Below, piece by piece: positions 2,657 through 36,785 of a stretch of 64,000 nt of DNA (position 1 is its first letter; the number at the start of each line of letters is the position of its first letter). The translations under genes and the position numbers were made by a program. Location of the stretch: the NCBI GenBank assembly GCA_012729835.1, contig JAAYCK010000108.1, positions 1 through 64,000 of the forward strand. The letters are read 5' to 3'. Origin of the DNA: Syntrophomonadaceae bacterium (GTDB taxonomy: Bacteria > Bacillota > Syntrophomonadia > Syntrophomonadales > Syntrophomonadaceae). The notes beneath the pieces were generated by a model. It was not told where the DNA came from, did no database searches, and was given only the letters and a program-made list of their open reading frames with translations.

Positions 2657-3439
2657 GTGAAAACAAATGGACAGGCAGCGGTATTAAACCTATTCAATAT
2701 CAGCAAATCTTTCGGCAATATTCAAGCATTGGATCGGGTCAGCCTAGAGGTTTTCAGTGGACAGGTTCTGGCGCTGGTAGGGGATAACGGCGCCGGGAAA
2801 TCCACGCTTATAAAAATATTATCAGGAGTTTACGCAGCTGATGCGGGGGAGATAAGCATCAGGGGCCAGGTTTTCAAACACCTGACTCCGGCCCGGGCTA
2901 TGCAAAGCGGAATTACTACGGTCTACCAGGATCTGTCTTTGGTGAATGGTCGCGATGCGGTCAGTAATGTCTTTTTGGGCAAAGAACATCGCAAAGCGGG
3001 ATATTTCGTAGATCGCCGGCGCATGGAGAGAGAAACCCGGCACCTGCTCGATCGGCTTCATATTAATATTCCATCACTTAAAGTCCCGGTGGGCAGTCTG
3101 TCGGGGGGGCAGCGCCAGGCGCTGGCGGTGGCGCGTGCCATTCACCAAGGAGGGAAGATTATTGTTCTAGATGAACCGACTGCCGCTATGGGAATAAAAG
3201 AAAGCCAGCAGGTTATGGCCTTGATCAGCAACTTAAGGGAACAGGGCTATGCAGTAGTTTTGGTCAGTCATCATCTTCCGCAGGTTTTTGCCTTGGCCGA
3301 TCGCCTGTGCATCATGCGACATGGCAGCCTGGTGGCTGATCTGCCGACCGGGTCGACTAATTTAGAAGAGGTAGTTGCCTTAATGACAGGAATAAAGGCA
3401 GGCCTGCCAACCGAAGTCAGGAAGGTGGCGGGCAATTGA
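2657..3439 (+). CDS. Sugar/nucleoside ABC importer, ATPase (single-domain RbsA type)
   Basis: Cytoplasmic ATPase of a CUT2 (ribose/nucleoside) family importer. Walker A is GDNGAGKST, the signature is LSGGQRQ and Walker B is IIVLDEPTAAMG. Classical RbsA has two fused ATPase domains in about 500 aa; this 260-aa protein has one and presumably works as a homodimer, as in the FrcA-like subgroup. GTG 2657 is chosen because AGGAGG is at 2643-2648; an earlier in-frame GTG at 2636 has no ribosome site. The stop overlaps the permease start (TGATG). It is the first gene of the cluster. Confidence 0.92.
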   Translation: MKTNGQAAVLNLFNISKSFGNIQALDRVSLEVFSGQVLALVGDNGAGKSTLIKILSGVYAADAGEISIRGQVFKHLTPARAMQSGITTVYQDLSLVNGRDAVSNVFLGKEHRKAGYFVDRRRMERETRHLLDRLHINIPSLKVPVGSLSGGQRQALAVARAIHQGGKIIVLDEPTAAMGIKESQQVMALISNLREQGYAVVLVSHHLPQVFALADRLCIMRHGSLVADLPTGSTNLEEVVALMTGIKAGLPTEVRKVAGN

Positions 3440-4398
3440 TGTTTTGTTCAGGTAACTATAGACGATTTAGTACTCAGGGCCTGTTATTGCTGGCGTTATT
3501 AGGATTGATGATAATAATGTCGTTCAGCTCACCTTATTTTATGAAGTGGGATAACCTGCGAAATATCCTGGACCAAAGTACATTAAACATCCTGGTTGGT
3601 GTGGGGATGACCATGGTCATCTGTGCGGGGGGAATTGATCTTTCGGTGGGAGCAGTGGCAGCATTGGCCGGTGCGGTTATGGGGCTGGCCATGCACGCCG
3701 GTTATTCCGCTTACCTGGCAATTGCGGCAGGACTGATGGTCGCTGTTTTATCCGGGTTGGTAAACGGCGGGCTGACAGCATATCTTCGTATTACCCCCTT
3801 CATTGTTACCTTGGCCAGCTTGTCAATCATCCGGGGATTGACCCTGATCATCACCGGCGCGATTCCCATTTCCAGTTTTCCCAGTACGTTCACCGGGTTG
3901 GGCAGTGGTTCGCTGGGTATTTTCCCGGCACCCGTAGTGCTTACAGCGTTGGTGGCGGCAGCGGGAGCTGTTTTGTTGAATCTGACGCCGAGCGGTTATT
4001 ATTTTCAAGCCATGGGAGGAAACGAGGAAGCCCTCCGCCGCAGTGGCATCTCGGTCCCCCGATATAAAATACTGGTTTATGTACTCTCGGCCTGCTGCGC
4101 TGGTTTGGCCGGATTGGTATTAACCGCCCGCCTCAATTGTGCTGATCCGACTGCGGGCTATATGTTGGAGATGGACGCGATTGCCACAGCGGTGCTGGGC
4201 GGAACCAGCATGCGGGGCGGACAAGGGAGTATGGCCGGAACTGTGATCGCGGGGCTGCTGCTGGCGGTTCTTCGCAACGGGCTTACCATAAACAGCATAG
4301 CTTCTTACTATCAGCAGGTTCTGGTCGGGGTGATTATTCTGGCAGCGGTAGTGATCTCTGAACTGAGAAGCAAGCGAGTTGAGGAAGCAGCGCTGTAA
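3439..4398 (+). CDS. Sugar/nucleoside ABC importer, permease (RbsC type)
   Basis: Integral membrane permease of the CUT2 family with about nine hydrophobic segments and the family pattern GGIDLSVGAVAALAGAV near residue 70 and AVLGGTSMRGGQGS near residue 250. The length of 319 aa is typical. The ATG overlaps the ATPase stop, so translation is coupled. The matching lipoprotein is not adjacent but lies at 9813-10886, at the end of the same gene run. That suggests the intervening enzymes act on the imported substrate. Confidence 0.92.
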   Translation: MFCSGNYRRFSTQGLLLLALLGLMIIMSFSSPYFMKWDNLRNILDQSTLNILVGVGMTMVICAGGIDLSVGAVAALAGAVMGLAMHAGYSAYLAIAAGLMVAVLSGLVNGGLTAYLRITPFIVTLASLSIIRGLTLIITGAIPISSFPSTFTGLGSGSLGIFPAPVVLTALVAAAGAVLLNLTPSGYYFQAMGGNEEALRRSGISVPRYKILVYVLSACCAGLAGLVLTARLNCADPTAGYMLEMDAIATAVLGGTSMRGGQGSMAGTVIAGLLLAVLRNGLTINSIASYYQQVLVGVIILAAVVISELRSKRVEEAAL

Positions 4399-4421
4399 TT
4401 TTGAATGATGTGAGGAGCTTT

Positions 4422-5255
4422 ATGATTTTAACTCCTATTTATGTAGAAACTGCCTTGTTGGGCATGGGACTGCCTTCAATATCTGATCAGCAAATACGTG
4501 ATGGTTGGAAAACAAGATTAATTGATGCTGATATTTATTTGGTCTGGATGGAAACGGGTAAAGTCATGCTGGGGGACCTTTCCTGCTTCCTTTCAGTAAA
4601 AAACCGTCCGGAAATGCAGCGTATAGATGGTAATAAATTAAAAAGTGCACAAGAAAATCAAATAAGTGGATTTCTTACGGCTTCAGCCGTCATGCGTATC
4701 TCAAACGAATGCGGGGCGATAACCGTAACGGCTGGTATGGGCGGTATTAGAGGAGCCTATAAATCAGATGATCTGCATTGTTTGATTAATCTCCCGGTTG
4801 TTTTGATTGCTTCGGCGCCAAAGGATGTTTTGGGTCTGTCGGCTTCCCTGCAGTATCTGATTCAATCAGGTACCCGGGTAGCCGGATGGCAGACATCCCA
4901 ATGCGATGGGTTCCTGTTTGAGCACCCGCCAGTTGAAGTGCCAATTTTGAATAGGTTGACTGATGCGGACGTCAACAAACAAAATTCGGGCAGCCTGATT
5001 CTCAATCCCATTCCAGCCAGAGACCGGCTGCAGGATGAAAACATGTTGCAGGAAGCATTGAAAGAGGGAGTAGCCGCCGAAGAGCGGGGAGAATCGTTTC
5101 ACCCGGCGGTCAATGCCGCCCTGGATCGCTTAAGTAACGGCGTATCCTCGATGATACAATTACGAGCCTTGGTACAGAATATTAATCTCGCATTAAAGAT
5201 TCGCGAAAAAATGACTCTGACAAAGGATGATGAAGTCAATGATTCCGCCAGATGA
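4422..5255 (+). CDS. Divergent pseudouridine-5'-phosphate glycosidase (PsuG/IndA family)
   Basis: Known PsuG enzymes split pseudouridine 5'-phosphate into uracil and ribose 5-phosphate through a lysine Schiff base. By eye the family landmarks are present in order: IYVETALLGMGLP (acid/base Glu, residue 9), a lysine near residue 72, TASAVMRISNECGAI and TAGMGGIRG (family TVAATM and TGGIGGVHRG), aspartates at 116-117, SAPKDVLGLSASLQYL with the candidate Schiff-base Lys134, and LILNPIP near residue 195. Its 277 aa is slightly shorter than the family norm. I start at ATG 4422 after AGGAG; a TTG at 4401 is possible. Identity to classical PsuG looks low, so the aglycone may differ. The PfkB gene at 8848 could supply the phosphorylated substrate. 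Confidence 0.72.
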   Translation: MILTPIYVETALLGMGLPSISDQQIRDGWKTRLIDADIYLVWMETGKVMLGDLSCFLSVKNRPEMQRIDGNKLKSAQENQISGFLTASAVMRISNECGAITVTAGMGGIRGAYKSDDLHCLINLPVVLIASAPKDVLGLSASLQYLIQSGTRVAGWQTSQCDGFLFEHPPVEVPILNRLTDADVNKQNSGSLILNPIPARDRLQDENMLQEALKEGVAAEERGESFHPAVNAALDRLSNGVSSMIQLRALVQNINLALKIREKMTLTKDDEVNDSAR

Positions 5256-6285
5256 AATGACACCCCGGGAAAGAATGGATGCATTTAAAAAAGGCCTGCC
5301 CATTGATCGTATTCCCTGTGCTCCAATGGTGGGTGAACATGTCACTCGTATTATTGGGGTTCCGGTATCGGCGTACCTGCATTCGGTTGATTTAATGGTC
5401 GAAGCTCAGGCACAGGCTTTCCGTTATTACGGTTATGACGGGGTTGGACTGGGACCAGGTCATCACGGCCTGGCCGAGGCATTGGGAGCCCGCCTGCACT
5501 ATCCTGATGATGACCGGCCGCAGGTCATTGCGCCAGCCATAAGTGATTATTCTCAACTTGATGATTTGCAGCCAGTAGAGGTCGACCGTAATGAAAGGCT
5601 CTCCAGTTATCTTCAGGCTCTGGAGCGAATCCGCGACCGCATTGGTGATCGGGTTAAGGTTTCCACCGGAGTCGGAGGACCATTTACCGCAGCGGCCTTT
5701 GTCCGCGGAACGGATGATTTCCTGAAAGATCTTCGCCGGAATCCGGAAAAGGTGCATGACCTGATGCGGCTAACGACTGCCAGTATCCTCAACTATATGG
5801 ATGCTGCACACAAGAGAGGCTTCAGCTGCAGTCTTGGGGATCCGATAGCTTCGTCCACCGTAATCAGCCCGTCACATTTCCGGCAATTTGTGAAACCCTA
5901 TTTGATGCAAATTGTAGCCTGGGCAGTACAAAAAACGGGAAGTGCGCCTTCTTTGCACATTTGTGGTGATACAGTTCCCATCTGGATGGATATGGCTGAA
6001 ACCGGCGTTTCCAGCATTAGTGTTGACAATCAGGTTGATCTGGAGTCGATTAAAAACGCCATTGGCGACCGGGTTGCCCTCAAGGGTAATGTAGACCCGG
6101 TCGCAGTTATGCTGCATGGAACTCCCGACGAGGTTCGCCGGGCTGGCCGGAACTGCATTAAACAGGCGGGAGATTCGCCGGGTGGCTTTGTTCTGAGTTC
6201 GGGGTGCACTTTGGCATTGAACACTCCCCGGGGCAATGTGCAGGCGTTGATGGATGCTGCTCGCATGTACGGCAGGAAGATGTAG
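5239..6285 (+). CDS. MtaA/UroD-family corrinoid methyltransferase
   Basis: Uroporphyrinogen-decarboxylase-fold protein of the MtaA/MtbA/VanA-like methyltransferase group, which moves methyl groups to or from a cobamide protein. It starts with the family-typical MTPRERMDAFKKG. The zinc ligands are visible as LHICGD (His240, Cys242) and SSGC (Cys323). At 348 aa the length is standard. It overlaps the end of the psuG-like gene by 17 bases and sits 9 bases before the corrinoid-protein gene, which fits a matched pair. ATG codons at 5227 and 5230 are alternative starts. Whether it demethylates a substrate or transfers to an acceptor such as tetrahydrofolate cannot be read from sequence. Confidence 0.88.
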   Translation: MIPPDEMTPRERMDAFKKGLPIDRIPCAPMVGEHVTRIIGVPVSAYLHSVDLMVEAQAQAFRYYGYDGVGLGPGHHGLAEALGARLHYPDDDRPQVIAPAISDYSQLDDLQPVEVDRNERLSSYLQALERIRDRIGDRVKVSTGVGGPFTAAAFVRGTDDFLKDLRRNPEKVHDLMRLTTASILNYMDAAHKRGFSCSLGDPIASSTVISPSHFRQFVKPYLMQIVAWAVQKTGSAPSLHICGDTVPIWMDMAETGVSSISVDNQVDLESIKNAIGDRVALKGNVDPVAVMLHGTPDEVRRAGRNCIKQAGDSPGGFVLSSGCTLALNTPRGNVQALMDAARMYGRKM

Positions 6286-6294
6286 GAGGGCAAG

Positions 6295-6942
6295 ATGAAC
6301 AGCGAGATATTGGGACGCCTGGCTGCTGCGGTAAGAGACATGGATTCGGAAGCAGTAGTCGCGCTGGTTAATGATTCTTTAGAAATGGGAATCACACCGG
6401 TCGAAGTAATTCACGATGGTTTGGCCAGGGGGATGGAAGAAGCCGGAGTCTTATTCGAGAAAAAGGAATATTTCATACCGGAAATACTGCTGTGTTCTGA
6501 TGCCATGCAGGCTGGCCTGGCAGTTTTAGCGCCGCACCTTGTTCACGATGAAGGGAAAGAAGGCGAAACCATTGTTATCGGAGTGGTGGAAGGTGATATT
6601 CATGATATTGGTAAAAACCTGGTTAAAATGATGTTGGAAGTGGCCGGGTACCAGGTGATCGATCTGGGCCGGGATGTCCCCGCTCCGGCCTTCGTTGAGG
6701 CAGTACGGGAAACCCAGGCCCGCTTTGTCTGTCTGTCCACTCTGATGTCCACTACCATGAGGCAAATGGAAAATGTAATTGAGCAGTTGCTGGCTGAGAA
6801 ATTGCCCTATCAGCTTAAGATAATGGTGGGTGGCGGACCGGTATCCCAGGACTATGCTGATCGTATCGGAGCTTCCTATGCGGAAAATGCCATCGAAGCC
6901 GTAAAACTGATACGTTATCTGCAAAAAGAGAGCGGTCACTGA
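6295..6942 (+). CDS. Corrinoid (B12-binding) methyl-carrier protein
   Basis: MtaC/MtbC-type corrinoid protein of 215 aa. The N-terminal helical cap (about residues 1-88) is followed by the B12-binding Rossmann domain with the base-off signature GDIHDIGKN, His103 being the lower cobalt ligand. Further landmarks are the CLSTLMSTTMRQM segment and VGGGPVS. A good GGAGGGC ribosome site precedes ATG 6295. Its neighbour, the UroD-fold methyltransferase, is the expected partner. No MtaB-, MttB- or MtvB-like first methyltransferase is present, so the UroD-fold protein itself may be the substrate-specific demethylase. Confidence 0.94.
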   Translation: MNSEILGRLAAAVRDMDSEAVVALVNDSLEMGITPVEVIHDGLARGMEEAGVLFEKKEYFIPEILLCSDAMQAGLAVLAPHLVHDEGKEGETIVIGVVEGDIHDIGKNLVKMMLEVAGYQVIDLGRDVPAPAFVEAVRETQARFVCLSTLMSTTMRQMENVIEQLLAEKLPYQLKIMVGGGPVSQDYADRIGASYAENAIEAVKLIRYLQKESGH

Positions 6943-7055
6943 GCAAAAGGGCGGCAAATTTGAGTTGAGTAACAGGCATGGGATTCTGCCACTATCAAAC
7001 ATATATGCATAAGTGCTGCAGAAAAAATCATGTAGTGTTAAAACTTAGTTACTAC

Positions 7056-7080
7056 TAATCAAATAATAATTGATTATAAT
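7056..7080 (+). promoter_or_regulatory. Inverted repeat overlapping a TATAAT box
   Basis: TAATCAA (7056-7062) and TTGATTA (7070-7076) form a perfect inverted repeat with a 7-base spacer. It overlaps TATAAT at 7075-7080, 46 bases before the next gene. This is the only sizeable gap (184 bases) inside the cluster, so an internal regulated promoter is plausible. No good -35 box is visible. Confidence 0.4.
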
Positions 7081-7126
7081 ATATATGTTGATAAGTTATA
7101 TAAGTTTCATAGAAAGAAGGCTGTTT

Positions 7127-8269
7127 ATGGGTACTGGGGTGTTGGAGATATTTAATGAACTTCGTGAGAAAAACATAATGACTTTGAAAGCAGCTAAAGA
7201 GCAGGATGTAAAAGTGGTCGGCATTTATTGCACCTATGGCCCGCGGGAACTGGTACTGGCAGCGGGAGCCATCCCAGTCGGACTATGCGGTACCAGACAG
7301 GAACCTATCGCAGCTGCGGAGGTTCATCTGCCCCGCAACCTGTGTCCCCTTATCAAATCCTCTTATGGATTTGCCGTCAGTGATACCTGCCCCTATTTTC
7401 ACTTTTCCGATATGGTGATCGGGGAGACCACCTGTGATGGGAAAAAGAAAATGTTTGAACTTATGAAGCGCCTGAAACCTGTCCATATCATGCACCTGCC
7501 CCAGGTCCCCGATCAATCGGCCTCTCTGGAAATCTGGTATCAGGAAATGATTCGCTTAAAGCAGGTTTTAGAAGAGGCTTTCGCAGTCGAAATCACCGAT
7601 GAGGCCTTGCGGGAAGCGATCCATGTGGTCAACGAAGGAAATCGTGCGTTGAAAGACTTATTTGACTTGAATCAGGCCTGTCCGCCCCTGATTTCTGGAA
7701 TAGACATGATCAAGGTATCCTGGCAGTTGGGTTTTCATACTGACCGTTGGGCGAGGGTGACCATGCTGGACCAACTGGTTGCCGAACTCCGTGAGTCCGG
7801 CGGAACCCAATATGATATCAACCGGCCCAGGATCCTGCTTACCGGCACACCGGTGGGGATGGGCAGCGAAAAGGTGGTTGAGCTGGTAGAGGAGTGCGGA
7901 GGTTTGGTGGTAGCCATGGAGAACTGCGGAGGTTATAAGACGGTTGGTTTGCGTATCGATGAAAATGACCTTCGTGATCCATTGCTGTTGCTGGCGGAGA
8001 AATATCTGGCTATCCCCTGCTCGGTGATGTCGCCCAATACCAAACGCTTGGAGCTCCTGCGGAAAATGGCCGCCGATTTTAAGGTGGATGGGGTGATAGA
8101 TCTGACCTGGCAGGCTTGCCACACCTACAATATCGAGTCTTATCAAGTTGCGGAATTGATAAAAGATGAGCTGAATATTCCCTTTATTCAATTAGAGACC
8201 GATTATTCGTCCTCCGATCAGGAAATATTGAAGAATCGACTACAGGCCTTTCTGGAGATGTTGGATTAG
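7127..8269 (+). CDS. Double-cubane/2-hydroxyacyl-CoA dehydratase-like protein (HgdB family), copy 1
   Basis: HgdB/BcrC-family iron-sulfur protein, closest by eye to the stand-alone double-cubane cluster proteins, which carry out ATP-driven low-potential reductions with an activator ATPase. The cysteines lie in IYCTYGPRELVLAAGAIPVGLCG (near residue 40), NLCPLIKSS, SDTCPYF and GETTCDGKKK. These motifs are shared nearly word for word with the second copy at 12930-14204. ATG 7127 follows GAAGG and replaces an upstream AT-rich in-frame extension. No activator ATPase is encoded beside it; the one at 14285-15049 may serve both. It sits in a corrinoid cluster, so a role in reducing the cobamide or a substrate is conceivable. 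Confidence 0.85.
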   Translation: MGTGVLEIFNELREKNIMTLKAAKEQDVKVVGIYCTYGPRELVLAAGAIPVGLCGTRQEPIAAAEVHLPRNLCPLIKSSYGFAVSDTCPYFHFSDMVIGETTCDGKKKMFELMKRLKPVHIMHLPQVPDQSASLEIWYQEMIRLKQVLEEAFAVEITDEALREAIHVVNEGNRALKDLFDLNQACPPLISGIDMIKVSWQLGFHTDRWARVTMLDQLVAELRESGGTQYDINRPRILLTGTPVGMGSEKVVELVEECGGLVVAMENCGGYKTVGLRIDENDLRDPLLLLAEKYLAIPCSVMSPNTKRLELLRKMAADFKVDGVIDLTWQACHTYNIESYQVAELIKDELNIPFIQLETDYSSSDQEILKNRLQAFLEMLD

Positions 8270-8280
8270 GGGGAATCGAT

Positions 8281-8826
8281 TTGCTAAATCACGATCTGGT
8301 CCGGGAACAGACCCGCAGCATCTTGACGCAGCTCCTGGAAGCGGGGACCTGGCGAAAGGGTATGACCCTGGTGGTATCCTGCAGCATCGGCCGTGTGGAA
8401 GGCAGGCGCGAAGACAGCACGGGAGATCCCGAATTGGCCAGAGCGATCCTGGATACCCTTCGCTCCGTAATTTCACCTGATATAAATCTGGCAGTACAAT
8501 GCTGCGAACATCTGAACCGCGCATTGATTGTTGAACGGGAGTTTGCCGAAAACTGCAGACTTGAGCCAGTCACTGCCGTACCCGTACCGGAAGCTGGGGG
8601 GACTTTTGCCGCGCTGGCGTATAAAGAATATTTTAGTGATCCGGTCCTGGTGTCAGCGATTCAGGGCGATATGGGGATCGATATCGGTCTGACCATGATT
8701 GGCATGCACCTGAGACCGGTACCCAAACCCTTGCTGCTGGATACGGAGATGATAGGCGGAGCCCGGGTAGTAGCTGCCCGTTGCCGACCCCGCTTGATTG
8801 GCGGAGCCAGAGCACATTACGAGTGA
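8281..8826 (+). CDS. DUF436 (YwlG/TIGR01440) family protein
   Basis: Conserved protein of the DUF436 family, recognisable from QCCEHLNRALIVER near residue 70, AVPVPEAGG near residue 98, GDMGIDIGLTMIGMHL near residue 128 and the end RPRLIGGARAHYE. The family is widespread in Firmicutes and its biochemical role is unknown to me. It starts at TTG 8281, seven bases after AGGGGG, and is only 11 bases after the double-cubane gene. Its presence inside a catabolic operon, rather than in its usual housekeeping setting, is unusual and suggests a sugar- or nucleotide-related role. Confidence 0.9.
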   Translation: MLNHDLVREQTRSILTQLLEAGTWRKGMTLVVSCSIGRVEGRREDSTGDPELARAILDTLRSVISPDINLAVQCCEHLNRALIVEREFAENCRLEPVTAVPVPEAGGTFAALAYKEYFSDPVLVSAIQGDMGIDIGLTMIGMHLRPVPKPLLLDTEMIGGARVVAARCRPRLIGGARAHYE

Positions 8827-8847
8827 GCAAACAGGAGGAATCATAAA

Positions 8848-9780
8848 ATGGACGTATTGGGACTGGGAACCGCCGCCATGGATATTGTAATGCAGTGTGA
8901 TAGCTTGCCACGGGAAGACGGTTTCTCTTTTATTCATACCGAACAGTTGCTGCCGGGCGGAAGCTGTGCCAATGTACTGGTTACCCTGGCTAACCTGGGG
9001 ATTTCTGCTGGCATGATTGCCGCCATCGGTGATGATGGGTACGGAATAGCATTCCAGGCCGATCTGGATCAATGCGGGGTGGATACCCAGTTTTTAATTC
9101 AACGCAGCTTGGGAACCACTCTACATACCTTTATCACCGTCGAACCCACCGGTTCACGGGCCATTTTTGCGAATCTGGGCAACAGCCTCCTCAGTTTGTC
9201 AGCAGAAGAGGTATATCCGGCGATGACCGACGGAATCAAAGTGTTCTATACCGACATGTTTCCTGGGAAACCGGCCATAAAGATCGCTGAACACTGCAAA
9301 AAATCAGGTATTCCGGTGGTTTTTAACCTGGAGTGTTCGCCCTCCTTTATGAAGCTGTGTGGAGTTACCAGCGAAGAGCTTAACCATATGATCGGGCTTT
9401 GCGATCTGTTTATGACCGGCAAAGAAGCCCTGATGGAATTGACGGCTTTAGGCGATTTCCAGCAAGCAGCCCGGCGGCTGAATGAACGGCATAACCCGCC
9501 TTTAGGCATGGTCACCACCTGGGGCGAAGGGGGGGCCGTCTGGCTATGTGGAACAGAAGAAATCAAGGCTTCTATCTATAAAGTACCAGCCATCGATACG
9601 ACCGGAGCGGGAGACGCCTTTGCCGGTGGTTTGATATTTAGCTATTTCCTGCAAAAAGCCACTCCGGAGATCGCACTTGATTTTGCCAGCGGCTGTGCAG
9701 CTTTAAAATGTACGCAGTTGGGTCCGCGGTTGAAGGGGGGGGAGCATTCGGTAAGAGAGCTTATGGCTCAATACCGTTGA
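8848..9780 (+). CDS. PfkB-family carbohydrate/nucleoside kinase
   Basis: Ribokinase-like kinase of 310 aa. The N-terminal GGSCANVLVTLANLG motif near residue 35 and the C-terminal DTTGAGDAFAGGLIFSY motif with the catalytic Asp (near residue 256) mark the family. It would phosphorylate a sugar or nucleoside hydroxyl using ATP. PsuK, the pseudouridine kinase, belongs to this family, so kinase plus PsuG-like glycosidase in one cluster is the known logic of pseudouridine breakdown. Substrate identity cannot be read from the sequence. AGGAGG precedes ATG 8848, and the binding lipoprotein gene follows. Confidence 0.92.
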   Translation: MDVLGLGTAAMDIVMQCDSLPREDGFSFIHTEQLLPGGSCANVLVTLANLGISAGMIAAIGDDGYGIAFQADLDQCGVDTQFLIQRSLGTTLHTFITVEPTGSRAIFANLGNSLLSLSAEEVYPAMTDGIKVFYTDMFPGKPAIKIAEHCKKSGIPVVFNLECSPSFMKLCGVTSEELNHMIGLCDLFMTGKEALMELTALGDFQQAARRLNERHNPPLGMVTTWGEGGAVWLCGTEEIKASIYKVPAIDTTGAGDAFAGGLIFSYFLQKATPEIALDFASGCAALKCTQLGPRLKGGEHSVRELMAQYR

Positions 9781-9812
9781 TTATAGAATCAAATACCAAA
9801 AAGGGAGGAAAA

Positions 9813-10886
9813 GTGAAAGTGAAAAAAAGTTTAGTTGTCGTATTGGTTTTGGCCTTATTGGTCAGCGTGATCGGATGCGGTAAAAAGGTCGAGGCTCCCA
9901 AGGATAATGCCCCGAAGGCTACTCAGGAGCAAAAGGTCGTCAATAGCGCATTCAAAGATACCGAGGCTGCTCTGCTCAAATCGCTGGAGCCTCTGCCCAA
10001 GGCCTCCAAGGCTTACAAACTAGCTGCCCTGGAAATCACCTTGGCCAACCCCTTCTGGGTTACTGTCAAAGAGGGTTATGAAGCTGGCGCCAAAGAATAT
10101 GGCGTTACGATTGATGTAATGTCTGCTCCCAAGGAAGATGATGTCAATTCACAGCTGGAAACCATGAAAACCTTGGTCAATAAAGACTATGATGCCATTG
10201 CTATCTCTGCTATTACACCATTTAATCTGGTCCCCGGAGTGGCAGCGGCAACTGAGAAAAAGATCCCCGTCGTCGCCGTTGGTACCAGTGTAGACACGGA
10301 GGCCGCCAAAAAGGCTAACGCCAAGATTGCAGCGTTTATAACCTCCAATTTCGAGGATCAGGGTAAGATGGGTGCTGAGTTCATTATTGATAAGATCGGC
10401 ACCGGCAAGGTTGCCATCATTGAAGGATTACCCGGTGCTGCCCAGAGTGAAGCCCGAAAAACCGGGTCCAAGAAAGCCTTTGAAGCCGCGAAGGGAGTAG
10501 AGTTACTGCCGATTCAATCGGGTAATTGGGATCGCCAGAAGGCTTATGATCTTACCAAAAACCTACTGCAGGCCAATCCGGATCTGAAGGGCATATTCTG
10601 TGCCAATGATGTCATGGCTTTAGGTGCGGTTGAAGCACTCAAGGCCGCCGGCAAGAAAGATCAGGTAACTGTAGTTGGTGTAGACTTTATTGACGATGCT
10701 CGTCAATCCATCAAGAACGGTGAACTGGATGCGACCGTGGCGATGTCTCCCTATCTGTTCGGCAAGGGCGGCGTCATTCTGGCCTTGAAGGTATTGGAAG
10801 GCCAAACCGTTAAGGATGACATCTATTGGACTCCCATGGCGGTGGTTGACCGCGGCAATGTGGATACCTTTGAGGGATGGAAATAG
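9813..10886 (+). CDS. Substrate-binding lipoprotein of the CUT2 importer
   Basis: Periplasmic-binding-protein type I (RbsB-like) lipoprotein. A Lys-rich N-terminus, a hydrophobic stretch and the lipobox VIGC put the mature N-terminal cysteine near residue 20. The mature part shows ribose-binding features such as ITLANPFWVTVKEGYEAGAKEYG, a repeated Rossmann pattern and FCANDVMALGAVEALK. GTG 9813 follows GGGAGG; GTG 9819 is equally possible. It is encoded seven genes after the ATPase but in the same direction, completing the importer. A clear terminator follows at 10899-10934. Confidence 0.93.
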   Translation: MKVKKSLVVVLVLALLVSVIGCGKKVEAPKDNAPKATQEQKVVNSAFKDTEAALLKSLEPLPKASKAYKLAALEITLANPFWVTVKEGYEAGAKEYGVTIDVMSAPKEDDVNSQLETMKTLVNKDYDAIAISAITPFNLVPGVAAATEKKIPVVAVGTSVDTEAAKKANAKIAAFITSNFEDQGKMGAEFIIDKIGTGKVAIIEGLPGAAQSEARKTGSKKAFEAAKGVELLPIQSGNWDRQKAYDLTKNLLQANPDLKGIFCANDVMALGAVEALKAAGKKDQVTVVGVDFIDDARQSIKNGELDATVAMSPYLFGKGGVILALKVLEGQTVKDDIYWTPMAVVDRGNVDTFEGWK

Positions 10887-10898
10887 TATAATACGTGC

Positions 10899-10934
10899 AA
10901 AAGGCTGGTAACGCTTGGTTTACCGGCCTTTTTT
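10899..10934 (+). terminator. Rho-independent terminator after the binding lipoprotein
   Basis: AAGGCTGGTAA pairs with TTTACCGGCCTT (one mismatch) around a short loop and is followed by a run of T residues. It ends just before the ribosome site of the DUF362 gene, so that gene either is reached by read-through or has its own start. Confidence 0.85.
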
Positions 10935-10953
10935 GCCAGGTGAGGAAGCCATA

Positions 10954-12024
10954 ATGAGTACGGTATATTTTGTTGATTTTAACGGGCGTAAAGATGACAG
11001 TACCATGCATAAGATGGAGCGGCTATGTAATGCAAGCGGGCTGCAGCAGGTCATTGCTCCCGATGACCTGACTGCTGTAAAACTGCATTTCGGTGAACTT
11101 GGCAATACCCGCATGTTGAGGCCTCAGTTTGCCAAAGTTATGGTCAGGTTGATCAAGGAAGCCGGGGGACAGCCGTTTTTAACCGACTGTAACACGCTTT
11201 TCTACCGTGAACGTTTCGAGGGGGTGCGTCATCTGCAGACAGCTGCTTTCAATGGATTTGACCAGCTTGGCATCGGTGCACCAGTTATAATCGCTGATGG
11301 GTTAAAAGGCCTGGACTATAGGAGCGTAAAAGCCGGACCGACTCTTCCCGAGGCCCGGATCGGAGCAGCCATCTATGAAGCGGATGCGCTAGTAGTGCTT
11401 ACTCATTTTAAAGGTCATGATGATGTGGGATTCGGAGGCATTATAAAAAACCTTGGCACGGGAGCTATAGCCCGGTCGGGGAAGCAGATCATACATTCCC
11501 ACTTAAAAGCCAACATCGATAAGACACTGTGCAACTTTTGCGGCCAATGTCTTGGTGCTTGTTCCCAAAATGCCATTTATCAAGATAACACCGGATATAA
11601 TATATTGCCTGACCGGTGTAACCAATGTGGTCATTGTCTGGTATTATGCCCGCAAAGAGCCATACCAGTACAATGGGAACGAGATGATACAGAAATGCAA
11701 AAAAAACTGGTGGAATCATGCCAGGCCGTCCTGAAGAATAAAACGGATAAAGCGTTTTTTGTCTCCTTCCTAGTAGATATAACTGCCTACTGTGATTGCC
11801 GGTCGTGGAGTCCGCTGCCCATCATCAACGATATAGGCATCCTGGCCGGTACCGACCCGCTTTCCATTGAACAGGCCAGCTATGATTTGGTCTCACAGGA
11901 AATTGTGCAAAACCGTGCCGGCAAGGATTTACGGGATTTTACCGGGGTAGATGGATCCTTCATGCTGCAATATGCTGAAGAAACAGGTTTAGGAAGCAGA
12001 GAATATCAACTGGTTAGGGTATAG
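10954..12024 (+). CDS. DUF362 ferredoxin-type iron-sulfur protein
   Basis: DUF362 protein with an embedded bacterial-type ferredoxin. The N-terminal half contains VKLHFGELGNTRML and LTHFKGHDDVGFGGIIKNLG, landmarks of the DUF362 domain. Two [4Fe-4S] motifs, CNFCGQCLGAC near residue 193 and CNQCGHCLVLC near residue 220, follow. ATG 10954 is chosen after AGGTGAGG. The C-terminal part carries a third group of cysteines (YCDC). As the last gene of the cluster region it could pass electrons to the corrinoid or double-cubane proteins, but this is inference. DUF362 proteins have no single known reaction. Confidence 0.87.
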   Translation: MSTVYFVDFNGRKDDSTMHKMERLCNASGLQQVIAPDDLTAVKLHFGELGNTRMLRPQFAKVMVRLIKEAGGQPFLTDCNTLFYRERFEGVRHLQTAAFNGFDQLGIGAPVIIADGLKGLDYRSVKAGPTLPEARIGAAIYEADALVVLTHFKGHDDVGFGGIIKNLGTGAIARSGKQIIHSHLKANIDKTLCNFCGQCLGACSQNAIYQDNTGYNILPDRCNQCGHCLVLCPQRAIPVQWERDDTEMQKKLVESCQAVLKNKTDKAFFVSFLVDITAYCDCRSWSPLPIINDIGILAGTDPLSIEQASYDLVSQEIVQNRAGKDLRDFTGVDGSFMLQYAEETGLGSREYQLVRV

Positions 12025-12929: not shown

Positions 12930-14204
12930 CTACTTCCTCAGCATCTCCAGAAAAGCTTCTACTCTGGTCCGCAGCTGTTCAAAATCCTGCTCGCTGTAAT
13001 CCGTCTCGATGTGCATTATGGGCTGATTACGCTCAGTCAATGCCTGTTTGACCTGATAACTCTCAGTAGAGTAAATGTTGCAGAATTGCAGATTGGTATC
13101 AATAATACCATCCACCTTGTATTCATCGGCCAGGCGGACTATATCGTCTATCCTGGCGGTATTAGGCGTGAAACAAGCACAATTGGTCTTCATATATCTT
13201 TCGGCCAGTGCCCGAATCTGACCATCCAAAGTAGTTGCTGACTCATCGACCAGGTTTTCGAAATAGCGGGTACCGGTACAGGATTCTTCAACCACGACTG
13301 CTGCACCGAGACTCTCTACAATATGATGCAGCTTCCAATTGGGTATGGCCATAGGCGTACCGCTTATCATGATACGCAGGGCATTATCCGGAAAAACACC
13401 GGACCCGCTATTGATCCGTTGCTCCAGTTCGTCAGCCAGGTTATTGGCCATCTCCGCCGCCCGCGCAGGATCATCGTAGAAGTTGATCTGGGTAACCAGG
13501 AGCGCGTCTTTGCCGCTGATGGGCACCGGCGAGGCTTTTCTGGCATTGTAAACCCGCTGCAAAGCCCTGCGCTTGTTGTTTATTAGTTTAATGGCTTCTC
13601 CCAGAGATTCGGCGGTAATTTTATTGCCGGTGACCTTTTCTACCACGGCGATGAAATCCTTTATTTCAGCTTCAAAGGCAGCGATGTCTCGGTCCCGTTT
13701 CATCTGCGGGATATCAATGATGTGGAAGGGGACTTCACCGGCCAGTATCTCCCAGGCTTTCTTCTTGCCGTCGCAGGTAGTCTCACCCACATACATATCA
13801 GGGATTAAGAAGAAGGGACAAGTCTTGTCCAAACGTGCTCCGACAGAAGCCTTGATGAGTGGACAAGTATTGGCCGGCAGAACTTTTTCTCCGCCGGATA
13901 CCCAGAACTGTGATCCTCCGCAAAGCCCTGCCGCAATTCCGCCGGCGGCAAAGACCACTTCATCTGGCACATATACGCAGAAGGTTCCGAACACCTTTCC
14001 GCCTTCTTTTTGATGTTGTATCATCTCTGCCGGCCTGACCCCGTGAATCTCGGATACCACAAAATCGTAGAAATCCATGCCTTTCGGACGATTCTGCTGG
14101 GTGAGGTAAACTCCTCCAAAAGCCTCGGGTAGTACCTCGCACAGAACGTCATGCTTCTCCAGGTCCATGCCCAGATCGGTCCACATTTGCTGGTAATCAG
14201 CCAT
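12930..14204 (-). CDS. Double-cubane/2-hydroxyacyl-CoA dehydratase-like protein, copy 2
   Basis: A 424-aa member of the HgdB-like family with the cysteines of the stand-alone double-cubane proteins: GTFCVYVPDEVVFAAGG, GLCGG, NTCPLIKAS, DKTCPFF and GETTCDGKKK (residues about 85-155). It has an N-terminal extension of about 70 residues compared with copy 1. It is 80 bases downstream of its activator ATPase gene and followed by DUF3343. Such pairs perform ATP-dependent electron transfer at very low potential. Candidate substrates include small unactivated molecules or other metalloproteins; none is evident. GGAGG precedes ATG 14204. Confidence 0.9.
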   Translation of the reverse strand: MADYQQMWTDLGMDLEKHDVLCEVLPEAFGGVYLTQQNRPKGMDFYDFVVSEIHGVRPAEMIQHQKEGGKVFGTFCVYVPDEVVFAAGGIAAGLCGGSQFWVSGGEKVLPANTCPLIKASVGARLDKTCPFFLIPDMYVGETTCDGKKKAWEILAGEVPFHIIDIPQMKRDRDIAAFEAEIKDFIAVVEKVTGNKITAESLGEAIKLINNKRRALQRVYNARKASPVPISGKDALLVTQINFYDDPARAAEMANNLADELEQRINSGSGVFPDNALRIMISGTPMAIPNWKLHHIVESLGAAVVVEESCTGTRYFENLVDESATTLDGQIRALAERYMKTNCACFTPNTARIDDIVRLADEYKVDGIIDTNLQFCNIYSTESYQVKQALTERNQPIMHIETDYSEQDFEQLRTRVEAFLEMLRK

Positions 14205-14284: not shown

Positions 14285-15049
14285 CTAAACGTTTTCCAGT
14301 GCCAATAATGCAGCACCCAGAGCGCCGGTGTACTGGCACGCCTCCGAGACCATTACCGGAGCGCCCAATTCTTCTTCCAGGGCTCTTTTAACGCCTTGGT
14401 TTATGGCAACTCCGCCGGTAAAGGCAATAGGCTCCTTTATTCCTAAGCGTTTGGCCATAGCCGCTACCCGCTTGCCTACCGACTGATGAAGGCCGGCAAC
14501 GATTCCGCCTTTTGGGTTGCCTTTGGCCATCAAGCCGATTATTTCAGATTCAGCAAAAACCGTACACATGCTGCTGATAGGCAGCCTTTGCGCAGGATCT
14601 TCAGCTGCCCCCAACTCACTTACATCAAGGCCCAGCGCCGTAGCCATCACCTGCAAGAAGCGTCCCGTTCCGGCCGCGCATTTGTCATTCATGGAAAAAT
14701 CAACGACCTGGCCCCGCTCTCCGATGCGGATTACCTTGCTATCCTGGCCCCCGATATCGATGATGGTGCGTACTTCCGGAAGCAGTTCGGCGATTCCCCG
14801 GGCGTGACACTTTATCTCGGTGACAGTCTTATCGGCCTGGTCAAAGGCGACTCGACCATAACCAGTACCGAATATCCTGGTTACCCGTTGGCCTTCAATA
14901 CCCGACTGATGCAGAAGCTGTGCAATAACTGCATCACTGGCATCCCGGGGACTCCAGCCAGTGGGAAATATAGTTTTGTGCTGAACACCGTCGCTGATAA
15001 GTATGCCTTTGGTAGCGACAGAACCTATATCTACGCCAATAACAACCAC
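14285..15049 (-). CDS. Activator ATPase of the dehydratase/double-cubane system (HgdC-like)
   Basis: BadF/BcrA/HgdC-family ATPase of 254 aa with an ASKHA fold: GVDIGSVATK at the start, DIGGQDSKVI near residue 98 and FTGGVAINQGV near residue 212. The two cysteines that hold the intersubunit [4Fe-4S] cluster of the homodimer are visible in NDKCAAGTGRF and SSMCTVFAESE. It would reduce the HgdB-like partner with ATP hydrolysis. It is the first gene of the minus-strand operon and is the only activator in the window, so it may also serve the paralogue at 7127-8269. Confidence 0.93.
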   Translation of the reverse strand: MVVIGVDIGSVATKGILISDGVQHKTIFPTGWSPRDASDAVIAQLLHQSGIEGQRVTRIFGTGYGRVAFDQADKTVTEIKCHARGIAELLPEVRTIIDIGGQDSKVIRIGERGQVVDFSMNDKCAAGTGRFLQVMATALGLDVSELGAAEDPAQRLPISSMCTVFAESEIIGLMAKGNPKGGIVAGLHQSVGKRVAAMAKRLGIKEPIAFTGGVAINQGVKRALEEELGAPVMVSEACQYTGALGAALLALENV

Positions 15050-30487: not shown

Positions 30488-30524
30488 ACGAGGTTAAGGG
30501 AGATTCTCTTGGCCTCGTTCTATT
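30488..30524. terminator. Bidirectional terminator between convergent cadA and regulator genes
   Basis: ACGAGG (30488-30493) pairs with CCTCGT (30513-30518), with a further inner stem (AAGGGAGA/TCTCTT). T-rich DNA follows on the plus strand, and AAAAG precedes it for the minus strand. It almost touches the stop of the minus-strand gene. Confidence 0.75.
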
Positions 30525-31485
30525 TTATTATCTTTCCGCAGTCCTTAAGGTCGTAGTCCCCCAGGCCGGAGAGTTCGTTTTGAAAGGCAGTAGAGGCCAG
30601 TATATCTAGAACCGCTTGTATGTGAGGCCGGGATACGGCCTCTTTTTTTATGACCAGATCATAGCTTTCCTGCTGCAGAGGGATGAAATCAATGCCGCGT
30701 ACTTGCAAGGCGGCTTTTTCGTGGCCCAGACCCACATCGGCTGTACCCCGCGCCACCACGCTGGCCACGGCCAGGTGTGACAACTCCTCGTAATTATAGC
30801 CCGTGATCTGCAGGCGATCAATGCCCCGCCGGAAAAGCTGCTCATCAAGTAAGACCCTGGCACCGGATCCCGGTTCGCGATTGACCATGGCAATATCCGT
30901 GCGGGCCAAGTCTTCCCAGGCTTTGATCTGCTTGGGGTTGCCGGCTGCTACCAAAAAACCGGCCATGCGATTTACCAGGTGGACCAGGATGGTCGGGATA
31001 CCCGGTACCAGACGCCGCACGAAGGGGGTATTATAGGTTCCGCTGTCTCCATCCCAGAGATGAACAGCCGCCAGGTCGGCACGATTGTTATAAAGAGATA
31101 GGAGGCCGGCGAAACTGCCCGTTTGCTGCCGCAGTACCCGGCAGCCCTGGGGATGACTTTCCAGGTGACGACCCAGAATATCCAGGATGGGATCCTGTCC
31201 GCAGATAACCAGACTGGCAGTAGCAGATCCCGGATCGACAGCCATGGTGGGGGTGATGGGTCCAGTTGTTCTGGAAGAGCCGGAATTCTGAGAGTCGACC
31301 GTCCGGTATTCCGGTTGTTTGCGGCTTTTCCGGTAGGTATCCAGGTCCCCGGCATCGATTCTGATCTTATTACCGATGCGATAGGCGGGAAGTTCACCGC
31401 GCTTCACCATTTCGTAAACCGTGTACTTGGTGATCTTTAATATGTTAGCTACCTCTTCCGGGGTCAGTGTAGTGTCATCTTTCAT
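30520..31485 (-). CDS. Molybdate/tungstate-responsive one-component regulator (HTH plus PBP-like domain)
   Basis: A 321-aa protein with an excisionase-type helix-turn-helix at residues 5-55 (LTPEEVANILKITKYTVYEMVKRGELPAYRIGNKIRI). It is joined by a linker to a periplasmic-binding-protein-like domain of the COG1910 type (VNREPGSGARVLLDEQL, GTADVGLG). This architecture is known from regulators of Mo/W transport, where the second domain senses oxyanion or cofactor. It is divergent from the modA-like gene with 161 bases between them, so it very probably controls that operon. Confidence 0.9.
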   Translation of the reverse strand: MKDDTTLTPEEVANILKITKYTVYEMVKRGELPAYRIGNKIRIDAGDLDTYRKSRKQPEYRTVDSQNSGSSRTTGPITPTMAVDPGSATASLVICGQDPILDILGRHLESHPQGCRVLRQQTGSFAGLLSLYNNRADLAAVHLWDGDSGTYNTPFVRRLVPGIPTILVHLVNRMAGFLVAAGNPKQIKAWEDLARTDIAMVNREPGSGARVLLDEQLFRRGIDRLQITGYNYEELSHLAVASVVARGTADVGLGHEKAALQVRGIDFIPLQQESYDLVIKKEAVSRPHIQAVLDILASTAFQNELSGLGDYDLKDCGKIIK

Positions 31486-31505
31486 TTGAGTTTACCCCCT
31501 AGCGT

Positions 31506-31534
31506 TTGACAAAAATTTTATCATATCCTACTAT
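31506..31534 (+). promoter_or_regulatory. Promoter of the molybdate/tungstate transport operon
   Basis: TTGACA (31506-31511), 17 bases, then TACTAT (31529-31534). A small inverted repeat ACTAT-N6-ATAGT (31530-31545) starts inside the -10 box and is a candidate regulator site. Confidence 0.7.
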
Positions 31535-31646
31535 TAATTTATAGTTGATTTCAGTTAGGTTTTGTTGGGGCAAATTGGTTTATGTCGAGTGGGGCGTGAT
31601 AACAAAAACTAATTGGAACAAAACGAACGGGATGAGGAGGATGAAC

Positions 31647-32696
31647 ATGAAGAAGAAGATGCAAAAGGTGCTGCCATTGATGCTGGTGATGTTGCTGGTA
31701 GTGGGGTTGTGCGGGAGCATCATGCCAGATGCTACTGCAAATGCCAAATCGGTAGCCACCATCAGTGCCGGCGGCCAGGGCGTGGTCAATGTCTATGCAT
31801 TGAACCTGCGTTCGGGACCGGGCATGGGCAACAAGGTGATTGGAGTCCTGAAAAAGGGCAGCGAGGTAACGATCAAGGCAGCCAAGGGCAATTGGTATCA
31901 GGTGCAGACAGCTGCCAACAAGAGCGGGTATGTTTATGGTGCTTATGTTAAAGCAATAAGCGCTCCAGTAGCAGTAGTCACTCCGCCCAAGAGTGATACG
32001 CGCAAACTGAAAGGCGCGCTGCTGGTATCGGCGGCGGCTAGTCTGACAGATGCCATGAATGACGTGGCCAAGGCCTATAATGCGGAGCAACCCGGAGTCA
32101 AAGTGACTTTCAACTTTGGTTCCTCCGGATCGCTGCAGCAGCAGATCGAACAGGGAGCACCGGCGGACATCTTTATTTCAGCCGCTGCCAAGCAGATGAA
32201 TGCTCTGGACGATAAAGGGCTGATCATCAAGGACACCAAGAAAAATCTATTGAAGAACCGCATGGTCCTGGTAGTACCTAAAGACTCGGCTTCTATCAAG
32301 AGTTTCACTGATCTGACCAAGGCCCAGGTCTTCGCGCTGGGTGAACCAGCATCGGTGCCGGCCGGGAAATATGGTCAGGAGCTGCTGAGCAAACTGGGAT
32401 TATGGAACAAAGTAAGTTCAAAAGCGGTCTATGCCAAGGATGTGCGTCAGGTTCTGGCCTATGTGGAGAGCGGCGATGCTGATGCCGGTATCGTTTACCG
32501 GACAGATGCCCTGATCTCGGACAAGGTCAAGGTGGCAGCCACTGCTGATGAAAGCCTGCATTCTCCGGTAGTATACCCGGCCGCGGTTATCAAGGCTACT
32601 AAAAACGAGGCCGTGGCACGCGACTTTGTAAAATTCCTCAACAGTGGTAAGGCGGATGCGGTATTTGAGAAGTATGGATTCACCGTGATTAAATAG
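31647..32696 (+). CDS. modA: ModA-type molybdate/tungstate-binding protein with N-terminal SH3b domain
   Basis: A 349-aa exported protein. A signal peptide (KKKMQKVLPLMLVMLLVVGL) is followed by a bacterial SH3 domain at about residues 40-100 (VYALNLRSGPGMGN, GNWYQV, SGYVYGAYV). The rest is a ModA-like solute-binding domain (LLVSAAASLTDAMNDVAKAY, FNFGSSGSLQQQIEQGAPADIFIS, YVESGDADAGIVYRTDA). ModA proteins normally lack SH3b; in a Gram-positive cell wall it could anchor the binding protein to peptidoglycan. No lipobox cysteine is obvious. ATG 31647 is spaced six bases from GGAGG. Confidence 0.92.
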   Translation: MKKKMQKVLPLMLVMLLVVGLCGSIMPDATANAKSVATISAGGQGVVNVYALNLRSGPGMGNKVIGVLKKGSEVTIKAAKGNWYQVQTAANKSGYVYGAYVKAISAPVAVVTPPKSDTRKLKGALLVSAAASLTDAMNDVAKAYNAEQPGVKVTFNFGSSGSLQQQIEQGAPADIFISAAAKQMNALDDKGLIIKDTKKNLLKNRMVLVVPKDSASIKSFTDLTKAQVFALGEPASVPAGKYGQELLSKLGLWNKVSSKAVYAKDVRQVLAYVESGDADAGIVYRTDALISDKVKVAATADESLHSPVVYPAAVIKATKNEAVARDFVKFLNSGKADAVFEKYGFTVIK

Positions 32697-32857
32697 CATG
32701 CCGTATATAAAGAGATCTGGTACATTAAGCGCCATTAGACCTTTCGGCAAGAGGCCAACTTTGGTAAAATTGAAGAACACTTACTTAAGTCAGCACCAGT
32801 TTGGTTTCGTCAGCTGGTGCTGGTTGTTGTATATTACTCTTAGAGGAGAAACATCTT

Positions 32858-33568
32858 ATGGACATGATGCCGGTTTGGATATCGATAAAAACTGCTCTGG
32901 CTGCCACCCTGATCACCTTTTTCCTGGGGCTGGCAGCAGCTCGTTATATGGCTGGCCGTGATTTCCGGGGCAAGAGCCTGGTAGACGGTTTTTTCATCCT
33001 GCCGCTAGTTTTGCCGCCTACCGTAGTCGGATTCGGTCTGCTCTGTCTCTTCGGGCGCAATGGCCCGGTAGGCCAGCTGCTTTTTGCCATGGGAAGGCCG
33101 GTGGTATTTTCCTGGTCGGCTACGGTAATTGCCTCGGCAGTGGTATCCTTTCCCTTGATGTATCAGGCGGCCCGGGCGGCTTTTGAACAGGTTGAGCCTA
33201 ATTTGGAGAATGCGGCCCGTACCCTGGGAGCTTCCGAGTGGCGGGTCTTCTGGCGGATTAGTGTGCCTTTGGCCTGGCCTGGCATCGCTGCCGGTGCGGT
33301 ATTGGCATTTGCCCGTTCCCTGGGCGAATTTGGGGCCACTTTGATGCTGGCCGGCAATATCCCGGGCAAAACCCAGACCATCCCGCTGGCCATCTACTTT
33401 GCGGTTGAAGCTGGCAAGGATGCCCTGGCCCTGAATTGGGTTCTGATGGTATTGTTCATCTCCTTTATCAGTCTAGTAGCCTTGAATCATTGGAAAAGGC
33501 GCCAGTATCATAATATGGCGTCAATAGTGGATTTTTTACCGGAGGAATCGACAGATGCTGGCAATTGA
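32858..33568 (+). CDS. modB: Molybdate/tungstate ABC permease
   Basis: ModB-type inner membrane permease of 236 aa with five or six hydrophobic segments and the EAA loop ARTLGASEWRVFWRISVPLAWPGI near residue 140. FARSLGEFGATLMLAGNIPGKTQTIPLAIY is characteristic of ModB/WtpB. ATG 32858 follows GAGGAG; the upstream extension is dropped. The stop overlaps the ATPase gene by 14 bases. A 161-base gap separates it from modA, possibly to allow a higher yield of binding protein. Confidence 0.93.
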   Translation: MDMMPVWISIKTALAATLITFFLGLAAARYMAGRDFRGKSLVDGFFILPLVLPPTVVGFGLLCLFGRNGPVGQLLFAMGRPVVFSWSATVIASAVVSFPLMYQAARAAFEQVEPNLENAARTLGASEWRVFWRISVPLAWPGIAAGAVLAFARSLGEFGATLMLAGNIPGKTQTIPLAIYFAVEAGKDALALNWVLMVLFISFISLVALNHWKRRQYHNMASIVDFLPEESTDAGN

Positions 33569-34631: not shown

Positions 34632-34676
34632 GTTGGTTAGAAATTGATTTGATCATTTGATAGGAGGTGCTGGCAG

Positions 34677-35492: not shown

Positions 35493-35533
35493 TATTAAAC
35501 TAAACGGGTTCGGCTAAGGTAGCCCTTCTACGC

Positions 35534-36370: not shown

Positions 36371-36489
36371 GCCAGCACCTCCCAGCACGATTTCCTATAA
36401 TCTATCATATATTATCCAGTCCCCGGTAAAAAGACTGATTTTGTCGGCAGTCGGCTGCTGTCCAATCAAGGGAGCTTTCCAGTGCGTAA

Positions 36490-36517
36490 TTGGGCAAAAA
36501 CCGGGTATAATTATAAT
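36490..36517 (+). promoter_or_regulatory. Promoter of the Mo-storage-like operon
   Basis: TTGGGC (36490-36495), 16 bases, then TATAAT (36512-36517), 23 bases before the ATG at 36541. Confidence 0.6.
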
Positions 36518-36540
36518 AGATCATAGATAGGAGGATTGGG

Positions 36541-36762
36541 ATGATGAGTAAGACCAAGATATTTGTCAGAGAGAGACACCAGATCGAAGAGGGAGAAAAG
36601 ATGCCCCGTTTTGCTATTGTCGGAGTGGCGGGAAGCGACCTTAAGCTCTATGCCAAGCATATACGCAAGATGGAGTTGGAGGAGATTGCTAGACAGATAG
36701 GCGCCGAGATCGTTTATCTCAAGGCTGGCAAGGGCGATGAAGAGATCGAGGTAGCACCCTAA
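36541..36762 (+). CDS. Conserved-looking 73-aa protein, partner of the Mo-storage-like gene
   Basis: A small soluble protein with a charged N-terminus and a compact core (RFAIVGVAGSDLKLYAKHI, then ELEEIARQIGAEIVYLKAGKGDEE). I do not recognise a family. AGGAGG precedes ATG 36541, and the next gene begins 23 bases after its stop with its own good ribosome site. It is thus a real gene likely expressed with the amino-acid-kinase-fold protein. It could be a regulator or second subunit of it. Confidence 0.7.
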   Translation: MMSKTKIFVRERHQIEEGEKMPRFAIVGVAGSDLKLYAKHIRKMELEEIARQIGAEIVYLKAGKGDEEIEVAP

Positions 36763-36785
36763 AGAAATGTGGAAGGAGATAGGAC

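Follow-up and report, generated by a model that had tools for sequence, protein, structure and literature searches.

A conserved importer, PsuG-fold enzyme, and corrinoid methyltransferase cluster in Syntrophomonadaceae: a candidate system for the salvage of methyl-selenium compounds

Methyltransferases of the UroD superfamily can be told apart by their zinc sites, since a His-Cys-Cys triad marks those that act on sulfur or selenium, whereas O-demethylases lose one or both cysteines (Kountz and Balskus 2023, PMC10418091). An enzyme related to these methyltransferases methylates selenide, and genes for double-cubane-cluster proteins (DCCPs) in such methyltransferase clusters provisionally point to selenium (PMC10418091). 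A CoA-enzyme activase and 2-hydroxyglutaryl-CoA dehydratase subunits are likewise partners of YedE, YedF, LysR_Se, and DUF3343 (Lin et al. 2015, PMC5322559, Table 1). Here we describe a cluster that joins a methyltransferase of the His-Cys-Cys type to a sugar-type importer, a PsuG-fold enzyme, and a PfkB-family kinase. It lies in the first 64,000 nucleotides (the window) of contig JAAYCK010000108.1 of a Syntrophomonadaceae bacterium (GCA_012729835.1). With moderate confidence, we read it as a system that salvages a glycosidic or nucleoside-like compound bearing a methyl-chalcogen group, methyl-seleno being likelier than methyl-thio and a methylated selenosugar being the simplest candidate. Animals excrete selenium mainly as selenosugars, which the bacterial Se-glycosyltransferase SenB is known to make; in the literature that we searched, no route for their breakdown is described.

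Gene content and conservation of the cluster

Open reading frames and matches to Pfam and NCBIfam profiles place ten genes on the + strand between 2660 and 12024. The first two encode parts of an ATP-binding cassette (ABC) importer of the CUT2 type: an ATPase with a single ATPase domain (2660–3439, with a start that may be at 2636; PF00005, 105 bits), nearest to the N-terminal half of YtfR, AraG, MglA, and RbsA, and a permease (3436–4398; PF02653, BPD_transp_2, 140 bits). They are followed by a PsuG-fold enzyme of a distinct clade (4401–5255), a UroD-fold corrinoid methyltransferase (5227–6285; PF01208, 252 bits; TIGR01463, 203 bits), and, adjoining it, a corrinoid (methyl-carrier) protein (6295–6942; PF02310 and PF02607, B12-binding and B12-binding_2; TIGR02370, 206 bits). 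Downstream lie DCCP1, a putative ATP-dependent reductase (7070–8269; NF040772, 507 bits), a DUF436/UPF0340 protein (8281–8826; PF04260, 196 bits; TIGR01440, 148 bits), and the PfkB-family kinase (8848–9780; PF00294, 110 bits). The substrate-binding lipoprotein of the importer comes only as the ninth gene, apart from its ATPase and permease (9813–10886; PF13407, Peripla_BP_4, 198 bits), and the last gene encodes a DUF362 protein with two 4Fe-4S motifs (10915–12024; PF04015, 143 bits, plus Fer4). Every match for the methyltransferase, corrinoid protein, DCCP1, DUF436, kinase, and DUF362-ferredoxin genes exceeds its cut-off. The preliminary description of this DNA had listed the same families running on one strand, and all were found. 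On the adjoining − strand, a second double-cubane protein, DCCP2 (12930–14204; NF040772, 495 bits), and a DCCP reductase/activase of the acyl-CoA dehydratase activase family (14285–15049; TIGR00241, 258 bits) probably belong to the same system. Both double-cubane proteins exceed the NF040772 cut-off of 350, and their activase partner is present.

An alignment of the binding protein served to find related loci; the PsuG-like alignment was too divergent to yield patterns, and a search with the PsuG-like protein alone returned no loci. The order ABC ATPase, permease, PsuG-like enzyme, methyltransferase, DCCP, DUF436, PfkB, binding protein, and DUF362 (nine genes) is identical in one other genome (G421) and in Moorella stamsii DSM 26217, the proteins of the two being 44–77% identical to those of the window, with the corrinoid gene moved or absent. 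Loss of gene order in relatives had been named beforehand as what would overturn the reading of the cluster as a pathway, and the order is kept. Moorella mulderi carries the 3′ part of the cluster at a contig end. In M. stamsii and a Peptococcaceae metagenome-assembled genome (MAG), a shortened DCCP stands in an otherwise intact cluster (L063:7819–8394, 191 amino acids; L067:8383–8856, 157 amino acids). Because the gene order recurs in M. stamsii and other families, the cluster is real and conserved across families rather than a product of chance. As a unit, it is apparently undescribed.

The PsuG-like clade is well separated in homology searches, its members (about 255–285 amino acids) scoring at least 118 bits and canonical PsuG at most 52 bits. 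Of the 63 genomes belonging to the order, 8 hold it, as do 14 of the 399 sampled from the phylum; each set has one further genome with a fragmentary copy. Among the 26 loci that were read, 20 have genes of the same CUT2 importer next to the PsuG-like gene. However, the PsuG-like gene is not obligatory for the cluster. The order ABC ATPase, permease, methyltransferase, DCCP, PfkB, and binding protein occurs without it in Candidatus Formimonas warabiya, a Peptoclostridium MAG, and a Peptococcaceae MAG, two of these three carrying an iron alcohol dehydrogenase. Many PsuG-like genes, in turn, have only the importer beside them, or are accompanied by a QueG/RdhA-like ferredoxin protein and a DCCP. 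Across the methyltransferase loci, the steadiest partners are the importer, the methyltransferase, and PfkB.

Several neighbors recur around the relatives. A QueG/reductive-dehalogenase-like Fe-S protein adjoins the importer or the PsuG-like gene at L013:78–779, L066:15594–16334, and L068:6751–7530, and has no full QueG match. In Moorella, UPF0280-like, ferredoxin, and HcyA homocysteine-biosynthesis genes lie directly 5′ of the cluster (L046:12923–15320; L063:906–3303). Adenine deaminase genes, recognized by eye, lie close to the PsuG-like locus or diverge from it in two families (L049:1–2513; L051:4832–6619), one of these loci also carrying a xanthine/uracil-type permease. A protein family (MKQYVVTPAAGKRLIGKGMA...) recurs 3′ of two clusters (L069:10430–11476; L018:15072–15875), and its copy in L069 has no Pfam or NCBIfam match.

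The methyltransferase, the PsuG-like enzyme, and the importer

The UroD-fold protein (METHYLTRANSFERASE) carries His243, Cys245, and Cys326 at the positions of the zinc ligands of MtaA, and this triad is invariant in 14 of 14 cluster methyltransferase homologs. In the tree, the cluster enzymes form nearly a single group (16 rows including two outsiders, with 97% support in the Shimodaira-Hasegawa-like approximate likelihood ratio test, SH-aLRT), apart from methanogen MtaA and several neighboring methyltransferases. The window genome has no second methyltransferase of this family at E ≤ 1e-25. Its one RACo-type activase is on another contig, and the cluster itself contains neither a tetrahydrofolate methyltransferase nor a dedicated activase.

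The product of 4401–5255 matches PF04227 only partially and weakly (57.9 bits) and matches no psuG model in NCBIfam. Its structure, modeled with AlphaFold2 from five sequences (predicted local distance difference test score, 85.9), matches only PsuG, TM1464, or AlnA among the 19 hits in the PDB at E ≤ 0.001, with template modeling scores of 0.72–0.79. In the alignment, the position of the catalytic PsuG residue Lys166, mutated in the K166A chain of 4gim, is K141, invariant in the clade. Glu31, also catalytic, corresponds to E16 (Asp in two members), and Asp149 and Thr112 are retained as D124 and T93. Other positions are changed. Lys93 is replaced by an invariant Arg74, and Asn289 is replaced by an invariant Gln253 in all 19 clade members; the loop VHRG....D, with the Mn ligand Asp145, is deleted in the same 19. 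An HPxxN motif (H234, P235, N238) is new and invariant. A long, fully supported branch divides this clade from canonical PsuG, and a plasmid search returned canonical PsuG only. Within the clade, methyltransferase-linked members do not all group together, so PsuG-like and methyltransferase genes have been joined or separated more than once. The earlier assignment to the PsuG family is borne out by a real, though partial and weak, profile match. The enzyme has a PsuG-type fold and probably uses imine chemistry, yet it should not be filed as PsuG.

The binding lipoprotein is closest to the Escherichia coli allose-binding protein (1gub, 3.6e-60). At three sugar-contacting positions of that protein (Lys9, Asp91, and the C-terminal Gln), the window lipoprotein has Ile, Gly, and Met, respectively, and thereby departs from the polar sugar contacts that would mark a CUT2 ribose or allose importer. 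In relatives, these positions are apolar or otherwise changed, the Gln position being Met in the cluster type and Tyr in the other type, with L070 alone retaining Gln. The contacts made by Asn, Phe, Trp, Arg, and Asp are kept. Since some contacts are changed while others are kept, the predicted ligand is probably sugar-like on one side, but not a plain hexose or ribose. Plain ribose or allose use was set aside for the same pocket changes. Two further loci (L070:4640–10948; L071:5807–11952) hold a GntR regulator, a PfkB kinase, an ADP-ribosylglycohydrolase, and a CUT2 importer without a methyltransferase, a gene set that resembles E. coli yegTUVW. Their binding proteins are of the same family as that of the cluster, and this pairing with PfkB and ADP-ribosylglycohydrolase suggests that the ligand has a ribosyl or sugar part. 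The cluster kinase is nearest to ribokinase and ribose-1-phosphate kinase, with an invariant GAGD motif, and scores 28.7 bits against the pseudouridine-kinase (PsuK) model, below its cut-off of 540.

Selenium association and candidate substrates

At the genome level, SelD exceeds its cut-off in 23 of 23 cluster genomes tested, and YedF does so in 15 of 15 genomes with the PsuG-like clade compared with 211 of the 399 in the phylum sample. This enrichment has a hypergeometric probability of 5.5e-5, or 4e-4 when collapsed to 12 families, which partly controls for ancestry. A physical association is seen in L048 (genome G206), where the order is binding protein, PsuG-like enzyme, YedE, DCCP, activase, DCCP2, a cysteine desulfurase family protein, SelD, and YedF, with YedE, SelD, and YedF all above their hidden Markov model cut-offs. 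The stretch L048:8855–19030 is a complete selenium cluster that starts with the CUT2 binding protein and PsuG-like genes. YedF also lies near relatives in L016, L019, L078, and L077. The window DCCP2 is 73% identical to that of L048 and 91% identical to that of L019, the window activase is 68% identical to the activase of the L048 selenium cluster, and DCCP1 is 57–72% identical to DCCPs of related loci. Corrinoid, methyltransferase, and activase sets are immediate neighbors of relatives in L018, L065, and L066, as is a corrinoid and methyltransferase set in L170.

In the salvage route that we favor, the CUT2 importer would take the compound up, and the UroD-fold enzyme would bind its selenium (or sulfur) on the His-Cys-Cys zinc and pass the methyl group to the corrinoid protein. 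The PsuG-like enzyme may open the sugar ring, form an imine between Lys141 and C1, and expel the leaving group, which could be selenide or another aglycone. PfkB would phosphorylate the sugar, before or after cleavage. DCCP1, DCCP2, the activase, and the ferredoxins could supply low-potential electrons, either to reactivate Co(I) or to reduce selenium or sulfur species, and selenide would be kept and passed to SelD. A methylated selenosugar is the simplest candidate because it puts to use together the importer type, a methyl-selenium demethylase, a C1-directed lyase, and a selenide sink. From directly observed genes, synteny, zinc triad, catalytic-residue positions, and genome-level selenium trait, and from a modeled PsuG fold, we infer the substrate, every reaction, and the order of steps by family chemistry. 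Only tentatively do we go further and propose that this is the first pathway by which methylated selenosugars or seleno-nucleosides are catabolized, one in which import and corrinoid-dependent Se-demethylation would be coupled to C–Se glycosidic cleavage by a PsuG-fold lysine imine and delivery of selenide to SelD, and the PsuG-like clade would constitute a new enzyme family.

A number of observations weigh against selenium salvage. The selenium trait is widespread among these anaerobes, and ancestry is not fully corrected for in the YedF enrichment. There is no selenium gene in the window, the SelD and YedF genes of its genome being on other contigs, and most PsuG-like loci have none within 10 kb. 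Some PsuG-like loci have neither kinase nor methyltransferase. We know of no precedent for a PsuG-type enzyme cleaving a C–Se or C–S bond. The His-Cys-Cys site also serves thiol methylation, so the enzyme could be an acceptor-side methyltransferase. Some relatives have adenine deaminase or ADP-ribosylglycohydrolase genes next to them, which hints at nucleosides, and DUF436 and DUF362 are left unexplained.

The main rival keeps the same chemistry and replaces selenium with sulfur: a methylthio nucleoside or sugar, such as the 2-methylthioadenosines of tRNA, methylthioadenosine, or methylthioribose, would be salvaged, with DCCP performing a reductive desulfurization. The zinc site would suit sulfur equally, and the homocysteine-biosynthesis genes 5′ of the Moorella cluster, the adenine deaminase beside the PsuG-like gene in L049 and L051, and the ADP-ribosylglycohydrolase and PfkB genes found with the same binding-protein family in L056–L058, L070, and L071 fit such substrates. 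Nevertheless, we consider it unlikely, given the consistency of the selenium trait and the YedE, SelD, YedF, and DCCP neighbors; moreover, methylthioribose lacks the free 5-OH on which a ribokinase-type kinase would act. A lower probability still attaches to the idea that the cluster merely feeds methyl groups from a methylated sugar derivative into the Wood-Ljungdahl pathway, with the PsuG-like gene as an optional accessory. Its hosts do include the acetogenic Moorella and Ca. Formimonas warabiya, and PsuG-less versions carry the iron alcohol dehydrogenase instead. However, such feeding is hard to square with a cluster that has no tetrahydrofolate methyltransferase or activase of its own, in a genome with one methyltransferase of this family and its single RACo-type activase elsewhere, and it leaves the DCCP and selenium links unexplained.

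The preliminary description had proposed import, 5′-phosphorylation, C-glycosidic cleavage, and N-demethylation of N1- (or N3-) methylpseudouridine. Its general scheme, in which one methylated sugar- or nucleoside-like compound is imported, phosphorylated, cleaved at C1, and demethylated through a corrinoid protein, fits the synteny, but its substrate fits less well and is, of all those weighed, the worst fit and the least probable. The PsuG fold with its catalytic Glu and Lys, the PfkB kinase, the importer, and the conserved synteny would all accommodate it. Against this stand a zinc site of the sulfur/selenium type, the loss of Asp145 and the HRG positions with Asn289 changed to Gln, the low score of the kinase against the PsuK model, clusters without the PsuG-like gene and PsuG-like loci without a kinase, and a selenium association, seen in the genomes and in the DCCP2-activase pair, that methylpseudouridine does not predict. 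The known N-demethylating corrinoid enzymes MttB, MtbB, and MtmB are not UroD-fold proteins, and therefore N-demethylation by the cluster enzyme would be without precedent. Literature searches pairing methylpseudouridine or selenosugar with corrinoid found nothing. O-methyl nucleosides and O-methyl inositols were set aside for the wrong zinc site, and queuosine salvage because QueG-like genes occur only in a subset of relatives, with none in the window.

If correct, selenium salvage would supply a missing part of the selenium cycle, a means of selenium recovery not yet described in anaerobes. It would also explain what the enigmatic double-cubane proteins and DUF436 do, and extend the PsuG fold beyond the cleavage of C–C glycosides. 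If sulfur is involved instead, the salvage route would still be new. The selenium reading is testable in cultured Moorella species.

Two other parts of the window deserve mention. Upstream of the cluster, an open reading frame at 2029–2403 (− strand) encodes a 124-amino-acid protein with a CSCCSSAGHC motif. It has no Pfam or NCBIfam match and is not conserved at that place in relatives; it was rejected as a conserved partner, the similarly placed frame in L012 being unrelated. At 30520–37619, we note by eye a molybdate-type ABC importer, an XdhC-like protein, and a UMP-kinase-like protein that resembles molybdenum-storage subunits.

Comparison with described systems

Four described systems come close to this cluster. 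With PsuK/PsuG (YeiC/YeiN in E. coli, PUKI/PUMY in Arabidopsis), it shares a PfkB-family kinase and a PsuG-fold enzyme with conserved Glu and Lys. However, the cluster enzyme is ∼30–40 residues shorter than PsuG, lacks Asp145/HRG, has Gln for Asn289, and adds the HPxxN motif; its kinase is nearer to ribokinase than to PsuK, and methyl-transfer genes are added. With the ribose and allose operons (RbsABC, AlsABC), the cluster shares the fold and family of binding protein, permease, and ATPase, as well as a ribokinase-family kinase. It differs in its single-domain ATPase and in the pocket, where Lys, Asp, and Gln have become Ile, Gly, and Met or Tyr.

The type 1 mlp clusters likewise have a UroD-fold His-Cys-Cys corrinoid methyltransferase with its corrinoid protein, a DCCP, selenium-using anaerobic hosts, and no tetrahydrofolate methyltransferase (PMC10418091). 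Yet a type 1 mlp cluster comprises at least Mlp2 and Mlp3 with a corrinoid protein and an activase, whereas the window cluster has one methyltransferase and no activase. It adds the sugar-type importer, PsuG-like enzyme, PfkB, DUF436, and DUF362, and its methyltransferases form a group of their own. Finally, DCCP2 and the activase are closely related to those of selenium clusters made up of YedE, YedF, SelD, selenocysteine lyase, DCCP, and activase (PMC5322559), and in L048 such a cluster includes a PsuG-like gene and a binding protein. The window, in contrast, lacks the YedE, YedF, and SelD genes and carries a methyltransferase, a kinase, and an importer.

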